Assembly (NCBI RefSeq): GCF_019823105.1
Contig: NZ_CP081958.1
Coordinates: 1,116,001 to 1,180,000 of the forward strand
Source of the DNA: Halobaculum magnesiiphilum
GTDB lineage: Archaea; Halobacteriota; Halobacteria; Halobacteriales; Haloferacaceae
DNA length: 64,000 nucleotides
Direction: 5' to 3'
The notes under the pieces are model-generated. The model did no database searches and was not told the DNA's origin. It worked only from the letters and a program-made list of their open reading frames with translations. Position numbers and translations under genes: made by a program. Of the stretch, positions 2,789-55,613 are shown one piece after another (positions within the stretch are counted from its first letter, which is position 1; each line of letters begins with the position of its first letter).

Positions 2789-3391
2789 ATGAGCAGCGAG
2801 GTCACCGACCACACGGACCTCTACGAGGAGTTCTCCGACGAGCGGCTCCCGCCCGGCCAGCGGAAGACCGACCGGTTCCCGGTTCTCTCGAAGTCCGGGA
2901 CGCCCGATTGGCACCGCGACGACTGGCGCTTCGAGGTGTGGGGCGCCGTCGACGAGGACCTGACGTTCACGTACGACGAGTTCCGCGACCTCCCCGCGGA
3001 GACGCAGCGGCAGGACTTCCACTGCGTCACCGGCTGGTCGAAGTTCGACTGCGAGTTCACCGGCGTCACCTTCCCGCAGTTGGCCGAGCTCGCCGGCGTT
3101 CGCGACGACGCCGAGTGGGTGATGTTCCACGCCCTCGACGGGTACACGACGGACCTTCCCCTCGCGGAGTGCGACCGGGAGGAGGTACTGTTCGTCTACG
3201 ACTACGACGGCGAGCGGCTGCCCGACGACCACGGCGGTCCGCTTCGGGTCGTCACGCCCCACAAGTACGCGTACAAGGGCGCCAAGTGGGTGACCGGCGT
3301 GGAGTTCCTCGCCGAGCCCGAGCGCGGGTACTGGGAGAAGCGGGGGTACTCCGATACCGCGAATCCGTGGGAGGAAGAGCGGTACAGCTAG
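2789..3391 (+). CDS. Molybdopterin-dependent oxidoreductase, sulfite-oxidase fold (YedY/MsrP-like catalytic domain)
   Basis: 200 aa, a single Mo-cofactor domain without heme or dimerisation domains. The Mo-ligating cysteine is probably C79 in 'DFHCVTGWSKFD', the hallmark of the family. Later motifs are 'HALDGYTTDLPL' and the 'GGPLRVVTPHKYAYKGAKWV' C-terminal block. No twin-arginine signal is visible, so the protein is probably cytoplasmic, unlike bacterial MsrP. ATG 2789 is preferred over an in-frame GTG at 2765. The natural substrate (sulfite, sulfoxide or other) cannot be told from sequence. Confidence 0.8.
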   Translation: MSSEVTDHTDLYEEFSDERLPPGQRKTDRFPVLSKSGTPDWHRDDWRFEVWGAVDEDLTFTYDEFRDLPAETQRQDFHCVTGWSKFDCEFTGVTFPQLAELAGVRDDAEWVMFHALDGYTTDLPLAECDREEVLFVYDYDGERLPDDHGGPLRVVTPHKYAYKGAKWVTGVEFLAEPERGYWEKRGYSDTANPWEEERYS

Positions 3392-3610
3392 AGCGAGGCC
3401 GAGTGAGCGAAGCGAACGAGGCCTCGGACAACGGCGGAGCGGTCCTCGTGCCGCTCCGCCCACAAGAAGAGCGGGCCGAGCGAAGCGAGGCCTCGGCTGA
3501 CGGCGGCGAGCTTGTGGGCGAGCCGCCCACAACGAGAGCGAGGCCTCGGGCATCAGCGGCGAGGTCTCCGTGCCGAGCCGCCCACAAGAAGAGCGTGGCC
3601 GAGTGAACGA
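3392..3610. repeat. Array of three hairpin repeat units downstream of the oxidoreductase
   Basis: A non-coding stretch of 329 bases (3392-3720) is dominated by repeats. Three units end in CCGCCCACAA (about 3457, 3524 and 3579) and are separated by GAGCGAGGCC/GAGGCCTCGG linkers. The first unit contains a perfect 10-bp stem, GGCGGAGCGG (3433-3442) with CCGCTCCGCC (3451-3460), around the 8-nt loop TCCTCGTG. The third unit (3556-3587) is nearly identical to 17676-17707. It begins immediately after the stop codon, so a 3' UTR or terminator-like role is possible. No gene is seen in 3392-3720. Confidence 0.7.
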
Positions 3611-17586: not shown

Positions 17587-17782
17587 TGCGCGGTCGAGCG
17601 AAGCGAGTCCGCGAAATACGGCGTTCACAAATCGCTTTGCGATTTGTGCGCTCACGAGACCGGAGGTCTCGTGAACGGCGAGGTCTCCGTGCCGAGCCGC
17701 CCATAAGTCGTGCGCGGTCGAGCGAAGCGAGACCGCGATGCGAGCGGGGAGTGCGCGGTCGAACGGACGTGAGACCGCGACG
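17587..17782. repeat. Repeat block with a three-hairpin element bracketed by 28-nt direct repeats
   Basis: The 331-base gap 17544-17874 holds no gene. A 28-nt sequence beginning TGCGCGGTCGAGCGAAGCGA occurs at 17587-17614 and 17711-17738 with one mismatch, with a diverged third copy near 17752-17780. Between the first two lies an 88-nt element (17620-17707) of three successive hairpins: 17626-17648 (10-bp arms, loop TTT), 17653-17673 (9-bp arms, loop GGA) and 17676-17699 (CGGC and GG stems around loop TCTCCGTG with a tandem G-A mismatch). The same layout recurs at 35612-35700. The block lies 3' of the uridine phosphorylase gene. Confidence 0.75.
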
Positions 17783-17874
17783 GCGAACGGCGAACGAAGT
17801 GAGCCGTGAGCGGAACGACCCGCGAGCCGTGCGGGACGGGAGGGAGCGGAGCGAGCCGTGAGGAGCCCGAGCCC

Positions 17875-35511: not shown

Positions 35512-35731
35512 GGCGGGACCGACCACCGGGAGGTCCCGGAAAACGAGCGGGGAGCGGAGCGACCCGCGAGTAAGGCGAGACGCGAGGCGGAGCCGAGCGT
35601 CTCGTGGGAACGGCGTTCACGAGACGCGTCGCGTCTCGTGAGCTCACGAGAGCTTTGCTCTCGTGAACGGCGCGGTCCTGTGCCGCGCCGCCCACGAAAC
35701 GAGCGAGGCCGACCGCGGAGAACCCTTGCCG
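35512..35731. repeat. Repeat block with second copy of the three-hairpin element
   Basis: Convergent, gene-free gap. It begins with a likely terminator stem for the upstream gene (CGGGACC ... GGTCCCG, about 35514-35538). The element at 35612-35700 has hairpins at 35618-35640 (10-bp arms, loop GTC), 35645-35665 (9-bp arms, loop TTT) and 35668-35690 (CGGCGCGG/CCGCGCCG, 7-nt loop). Lengths, the 4-nt linker (AGCT here, CGCT at 17649) and the flanking GGCGTT and CCGCCCA agree with 17620-17707, though the stems differ. Confidence 0.75.
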
Positions 35732-54833: not shown

Positions 54834-55613
54834 GGCGTGGGCGAGGCGTGGCTGACGTAAAGGTCCGTGGGTATGGATACTCGGTCGGCGAGGGTGTCGT
54901 CGGTGTGCTCTGTGGGTCGGGGAGGTTCGCAGCGATGGAGACTCCGGAAGCCCCCGCGGTTCTCGACGTATTCTCAGTGGGTAACGAGCAGACGACCCTG
55001 AGCACTCCGGAAGCCCCCGCGGTTCTCGACGTCCGCGACTCGCTGTCGTTCGAAAGACGCTTCGCGTCTTTCGTGATGACGAGACGGCGGAGCCGTCTCG
55101 AACCACGCTCCTCGCGCTCACTCCGTTCGCGCTCCGGTGCTTCCGTCGTCTCGACGGTCGAGAACCGCGGCCCCTTCCATTCCCACCCATCGCATCCTCG
55201 CTTACGTCGGAGCAAGCTCCGACGAACTCACGTTCACTCCGTTCACGTGAGCCTCCCCAGCCGCCTGCGATGCTCGGCTCGCTCACTCCGTTCGCTCCCT
55301 GCGCTTCTCGTCGCTCGCGCGCTACCGGCCGCGACGGAGCGCGGCCGGCGCGCGCCAACCTACTGGTCCCATGTATTGTACCGCGAGCGAGCCAGCCGAA
55401 GGCTGGCGAGCGAGCGGCTTTGGCATTACGGGAAATCTTCGATTTCCCGTCAGCAGCAGGAACGCGTCGCGTTCCTGCAGCATGAACGGGTTTTCGCCGA
55501 GCGGTTCCCGCAGGCCGCCGGAGTTCTCGTGAGCGAAGCGAACGAGAGCACGGAAGTCGAGTGAAGCGAGTCTTCCGGAGGCGGCCGAGGAAACCCGAGG
55601 CGAAAAGAGGTTC
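54834..55613. repeat. 780-base gene-free repeat block with many 3-nt-loop hairpins
   Basis: No credible gene. A 29-nt direct repeat occurs at 54941-54969 and 55004-55032 (34 nt between), with a partial inverted copy near 55156-55175. Perfect hairpins follow: 55051-55073 (loop TTC), 55080-55100 (loop GGA), 55205-55224 (loop AA), 55391-55407 (loop GAA), 55428-55450 (loop TTC) and 55456-55478 (loop GTC), with arms of 7-10 bp. Three copies of TCACTCCGTTC occur at about 55110, 55230 and 55280. The right end carries GTGAGCGAAGCGAACGAG-type sequence. The block ends at the thioredoxin reductase stop codon. Confidence 0.75.

Follow-up and report, generated by a model that had tools for sequence, protein, structure and literature searches.

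A 54-bp pair of tagged hairpins inserted into resident hairpins of Halobaculum magnesiiphilum: a probable non-autonomous mobile DNA element of haloarchaea

The window analyzed herein is a 64,000-nucleotide stretch of the Halobaculum magnesiiphilum genome (hereafter the host genome), corresponding to G000:C1:1116001-1180000 in the genome coordinates used. The original prediction described two segments in this window, 17620-17707 (88 nt) and 35612-35700 (89 nt), as two copies of a single three-hairpin element, and both segments were indeed present at these positions. The features of the window are as follows.

3431-3585, plus strand: three intact hairpin-A units in tandem, located after the ORF that ends at 3391 and representing the target without insert
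17587-17614, no strand assigned: hairpin B, a 28-bp direct repeat (D3) on the left of the copy-1 composite
17620-17703, plus strand: hairpin A split by copy 1, with the 5' foot GGC at 17620-17622 and the remainder at 17677-17703 (GGCGAGGTCTCCGTGCCGAGCCGCCCA), the latter being the predicted third hairpin
17623-17676, plus strand: copy 1 of the 54-bp double-hairpin insert (type T1), GTTCAC-H1-CGC-H2-GTGAAC, with perfect inverted repeats and covariance-model matches; H1 17626-17648 (loop 17636-17638), linker 17649-17651, H2 17652-17674 (loop 17662-17664)
17711-17738, no strand assigned: hairpin B, the 28-bp direct repeat (D3) on the right of the copy-1 composite
35612-35694, plus strand: hairpin A split by copy 2, with the foot GGC at 35612-35614 and the remainder at 35669-35694
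35615-35668, plus strand: copy 2 of the 54-bp double-hairpin insert, with empty and filled orthologues; H1 35618-35640, linker 35641-35643, H2 35644-35666
55051-55100, plus strand: T2 double hairpin, GTCGTTCGAAAGACGC..CGTCTTTCG-TGATGA-CGAGACGGC..GCCGTCTCGAACCACG, from the hairpin-pair scan
55428-55478, minus strand: T3 double hairpin, from the hairpin-pair scan

In both copies, H1 and H2 were perfect hairpins with 10-bp stems and 3-nt loops, and the segments folded at -46.3 (copy 1) and -59.8 kcal/mol (copy 2) with z-scores of -4.9 and -6.9, respectively, none of 200 dinucleotide shuffles being as stable. The third hairpin proved perfect in copy 2 but imperfect in copy 1, where it contains two internal mismatches. 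The GGC and GCC of hairpin A pair around the insert in copy 1, and removal of the insert from copy 2 restored perfect 10-bp arms (GGCGGCGCGG/CCGCGCCGCC). Both copies lie 3' of a gene as originally noted; copy 1, however, is flanked by two minus-strand genes and is thus also located 5' of the next gene, on the opposite strand. The location of both copies 3' of a gene, together with four further copies in the host genome that follow a stop codon on the same strand, would suit the view first put forward, namely a three-hairpin structured RNA or 3'-UTR element kept by selection on the RNA fold. On the other hand, copy 1 is antisense to both of its neighbours, and Rfam 15 gave no match above the gathering score in the window; a tRNA search likewise returned nothing.

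The orthologous and paralogous sites revealed that the three hairpins do not constitute one element: H1 and H2 together form a 54-bp insertion, whose target, the third hairpin, occurs empty elsewhere. At the copy-2 orthologue, hairpin A is uninterrupted in G014 (L106; ..AAACGGC^GGCGCGGTCCTG..) and in G017 (L107; ..TACCGGC^GGCGCGGTCTCC..), the general form of these empty sites being ..CGGC^GGCGCGGTC..(C)CGCGCCGCC and the difference from the filled form being exactly 54 bp, whereas the site is filled in G015 (L104), where GTTCAC-H1-H2-GTGAAC stands between the same letters as in the host genome. Hairpin A without H1/H2 is also represented by the three tandem units at 3431-3585 of the window. The 88/89-nt segments are therefore composites, in which a 54-bp double hairpin is embedded within a resident GC-rich hairpin A. 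Locus 1 alone gives no boundary, since the species difference there is a 97-bp block between the two 28-bp repeats that is missing from G015, namely a whole array unit and not a clean 54 bp. At locus 2, the distribution of filled and empty sites points to a gain rather than a precise loss.

The same boundaries were identical in about 60 copies. A relaxed pattern yielded 61 matches, 58 of which were exactly 54 nt long and 56 distinct in sequence, and the 54-nt copies were preceded by C in 58/58 and followed by G in 57/58 cases. Because CG is found on both sides of the insert, the insert can be read equally well as 54 bp without duplication or as a 52-bp element that duplicated the 2-bp CG. A target duplication of 6-7 bp, considered in view of the direct repeat ACGGCG on both sides, was rejected, as the empty sites assign most of these letters to the target and leave at most CG. 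Two side observations concern other orthologous regions: comparison of L004 with L063 showed that in G015 an additional 54-mer, of a different subtype, is found 142 bp downstream in the array's next hairpin A, a place at which the host genome has no insert of this kind; and at the orthologous site L008/L141 two species carry different 54-mer subtypes, which would reflect either independent insertions or replacement.

As for abundance, the count of two copies was too low. A covariance model built from the two segments, the check originally proposed, retrieved nine full copies (E < 1e-11) and looser relatives in the host genome, and a second model of the 64-nt core, built from eleven copies, found eleven clear, strong copies there. 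Family-wide, the core model matched in 145/170 genomes and 26/28 genera; class-wide at E <= 1e-6, it matched in 226/391 genomes and 66/86 genera, although these class-wide matches may include other paired-hairpin types and our detailed reading was confined to the family-level matches. Among named genomes, a strict pattern matched Halobaculum saliterrae and Candidatus Halobonum tyrrellensis. Scanning 464 kb of the host genome for perfect hairpins (arms >= 8 bp) lying close together in pairs, we detected 19 such pairs, as compared with none in one dinucleotide-Markov randomized copy; about a quarter of the 19 either resemble chance repeats in coding sequence or are overlapping pairs from a single array. 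Neither convincing stand-alone half-elements nor an autonomous version was found in these 464 kb.

A sister 54-mer (T5) was located upstream of IS605-type tnpA/tnpB genes, within a near-terminal palindrome. Its flanks are always ..GATACAGC / GCCGCA.. or their counterpart on the opposite strand, the 54-mer occurring in both orientations, and the empty site GGGATACAGCGYYGCAC (at most one mismatch) was present in 75/167 genomes and 21/28 genera. Within the host genome, the IS605-type end at C1:919300 is filled, and that at C1:731189, beside another tnpB, is empty. A candidate assignment of the T5 context to the TnpB 3' guide-RNA region was discarded, since the ORFs place T5 upstream of tnpA/tnpB. 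Nor do we claim a strand polarity for the GGCGTTCAC sites over 2.3 Mb, where one-strandedness was apparent among the matches listed, forward ones first. By folding, the T5 insertion point falls within the near-terminal palindrome, on its 3' arm (GGCGCT..AGC^GCC), and the entry point in hairpin A is GGC^GGC; the cut hence lies precisely 3 bp from the foot in both hairpins. When the 6-mer centred on this point is considered, an inverted partner is found within 60 nt at 31/56 loci, as against 13% at other CG steps in the same flanks, but the 56 loci belong mainly to two target families and the 31 are not independent targets, so that few independent targets underlie the target rule. The corresponding 8-mer has such a partner at 0/56 loci, which places the foot at exactly 3 bp. 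A looser test, which allowed one mismatch in the 8-mer, gave 46% versus 33% in controls, a less clear contrast than that of the centred exact test. Insertion takes place at a CG step and adds exactly the 54-bp unit, and C^G steps situated exactly 3 bp from the foot of a further hairpin (GGC^G) are strongly preferred.

The 54-mers share a layout of an outer CGTT/AACG tag and two hairpins, each with a 10-bp stem and a 3-nt loop, joined by a 3-nt linker, and nearly all T1 copies have the terminal inverted repeats GTTCAC..GTGAAC. Among the 56 distinct sequences, 1193 of 1232 pair cells were standard and 137 had changed on both sides, neither value being reached by any of 2000 shuffles, and the eleven copies of the host genome alone gave a similar result. 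The proposal that the fold is preserved while the stem sequence is not was thereby borne out, in that the family has numerous copies and retains its structure through many stem changes affecting both sides. Loop entropy was 1.7-2.0 bits per site (near random) versus about 0 for the tags, and GTT..AAC and the linker G-C hardly vary. In eight orthologous pairs verified by both flanks or by a long alignment, the loop was replaced by its exact reverse complement in three (ACC/GGT, TGT/ACA, and GCA/TGC) with few other changes; the pair L002/L104 was identical. As these reverse-complemented loops show, the palindromes flip in place, and the flips point to events in the DNA palindromes themselves. 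This is difficult to reconcile with selection on an RNA fold, for which the strong pairing and covariation would otherwise speak, and the third hairpin moreover occurs without H1/H2, and H1/H2 occur without the third hairpin at the IS605-type end; a structured RNA element is accordingly highly unlikely.

Mutation bias alone, in which quasipalindrome correction by strand switching makes the arms complementary without any selection on the fold, the element possibly being an inactive relic that travelled with its host repeats, would account for the loop flips, for the scarcity of intermediates (19 wobble and 39 mismatch cells among the 1232), and for array units being gained and lost as blocks. 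It offers no explanation, however, for the conservation of the tag and unpaired-linker positions next to saturated loops, as correction acts within the arms, nor for exact insertion at a fixed distance from the foot in unrelated targets, and we thus regard it as an improbable explanation when taken alone. The conserved tags and linker, left unexplained by strand switching, instead suggest that something recognizes them.

Taken together, we consider it likely (a probability of roughly 80%) that the 54-bp inverted pair of tagged hairpins is a non-autonomous mobile DNA element, that the predicted third hairpin is its target, and that the folded hairpins are read in trans. In the mechanism that we envisage, the hairpins, folded from a single strand or as a cruciform, would be recognized by a trans-acting enzyme, and this recognition would preserve both the pairing and the tags; within the palindromes, strand switching would flip the loops and transfer the sequence of one arm to the other, leaving the stems swapped yet still self-complementary.

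With regard to the candidate mover, the 54-mers might be terminal-only remnants of IS605-type elements (PATE type) moved in trans by a Y1 (HUH) transposase. Such an origin would fit the two Y1_Tnp genes in the host genome, and the IS605 type has hairpins near both ends and no target duplication, with terminal-only 52-bp versions reported (PMC3119063). Nevertheless, the 54-mer possesses inverted terminal repeats, which PATEs by definition do not have, and no paired hairpins of the 54-mer kind were seen around the two Y1_Tnp genes of the host genome. Y1_Tnp was also not detected in the element-rich genomes G017, G018, G101, and G020 (some of them drafts); a link to the Y1 transposase by presence was therefore not supported, and Y1 would not be obligatory as the mover. 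We thus hold an origin from IS605-type remnants to be doubtful, and retain the reading of a non-autonomous element recognized in trans. The further-reaching possibility, that a widespread gene-less haloarchaeal family moves as folded DNA and is aimed at hairpins 3 bp from the foot by machinery other than the Y1 transposase, with both donor and target read by shape, is put forward only tentatively, and we would not expect it to hold in full.

Paired hairpins with other tags (T2, T3, and T4) were also identified. T2 is polymorphic near locus 1 (L090 and L091), being present in G015 and G019 and absent from the host genome and G016. T3 recurs in the host genome at C1:1299221 and, nested inside T2, at C1:1281400, where four hairpins stand in a row (L036, C1:1281400-1281482). 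At 54900-55560 of the window, T2 and T3 lie within a larger repeat with ends like AAGCCCCCGCGG...CCGCGGCCCCTTCCATTCCCACCC, which was also observed in L013, L015, L027, and L065. A T4-like double hairpin resides in frame within mutS (L016, C1:1563029-1566130), where it accounts for about 20 additional residues; the conserved blocks on either side of it both align to solved MutS. Another double hairpin (L014, C1:904543-904640) begins with a hairpin whose 14-bp arm is formed by the terminal part of a gene (DnaK-like C-terminus) and whose loop contains the stop codon; this hairpin gives the impression of having taken up a copy of local sequence. In L072 (about 2000-2100), a T3-type pair with an in-frame TAG lies inside tnpB, and the same IS carries a T5 insert. 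The intergenic arrays at 17587-17870 of the window and at L093 consist of hairpin A and hairpin B units (GCGGTCGAGCGAAGCGAGACCGC type), the number of which varies among species, and in G016 a unit of about 77 bp is tandemly repeated at the former site.

Paired inverted palindromes dispersed as a unit are known from the REPINs, the GTAG-tagged REP dimers mobilized by RAYT, and the 54-mer resembles them in this respect. The 54-mer differs from them in the lack of a GTAG tag and of a linked RAYT-type gene, and its hairpins are separate and perfect.

The original prediction knew of no described family with this layout, which holds insofar as Rfam is concerned, but two described groups are close in kind: the small mobile repeats of Haloquadratum walsbyi (SMR-A and SMR-B; Dyall-Smith et al., 2011; PMC3119063) and the CGTC-tagged REP dimers of bacteria (Di Nocera et al., 2013; PMC3733652). 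The 54-mer belongs to neither, as each misses some of the defining features, the SMRs being compared by description. Like the SMRs, which are gene-less, occur in tens of copies, and carry terminal inverted repeats (PMC3119063), the 54-mer has inverted termini; SMRs show no target duplication (PMC3119063), and the 54-mer shows exact 54-bp differences from which a 2-bp CG duplication is indistinguishable. The terminal repeats of the SMRs are described as bearing no relation to known transposons (PMC3119063). SMR-A inserts in near-terminal palindromes of IS605-type elements and PATEs (PMC3119063), just as the 54-mer is found at AGC^GCC upstream of tnpA/tnpB, while the 54-mer additionally targets the intergenic hairpin A. 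The SMRs are also longer, at about 110 bp (SMR-A) or 80 bp (HqIRS41), and more than 95% identical within a type (PMC3119063), in contrast to the 54 bp and the variable stems and loops observed here. The palindrome-associated transposable elements (PATEs) are likewise short, gene-less, palindromic, haloarchaeal, and free of target duplication, but they have no terminal inverted repeats (PMC3119063).

The CGTC-tagged REPs share with the 54-mer an arrangement of tag, stem-loop, and short tail in an inverted pair with the tags outside, as well as complementary stem variants, insertion of some members in palindromes, and the lack of a dedicated transposase (PMC3733652). Dimers with outer tags predominate among them (PMC3733652), in line with the absence of convincing stand-alone halves noted above, and some reside in DNA synthesis and repair genes (PMC3733652), as does the related T4-like pair in mutS. 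They differ in the terminal tag, which is CGTC (or TGTC/CCTC) (PMC3733652) as opposed to CGTT in T1, CGTC being found only in the first half of T4; in the stem of 8-9 bp and loop of 4-5 nt (PMC3733652) as opposed to 10 bp and 3 nt, which would read as 9 bp and 5 nt only with the final C-G pair assigned to the loop; and in the CCA tails (PMC3733652) as opposed to the linker AGC/CGC. Archaea are not named in the text of that paper outside its reference list (PMC3733652). The mobilization of the haloarchaeal SMRs has been termed enigmatic since 2011 (PMC3119063), and the bacterial CGTC REPs have no known transposase (PMC3733652). Against this background, the 54-mer represents an archaeal counterpart to the bacterial REP dimers, displaying natural hairpin flipping at orthologous sites; as a single 54-bp unit, it has exactly defined boundaries, occurs at filled sites that have empty counterparts, follows a fixed target geometry, and comes in many natural variants, and its mover can therefore be tested directly.
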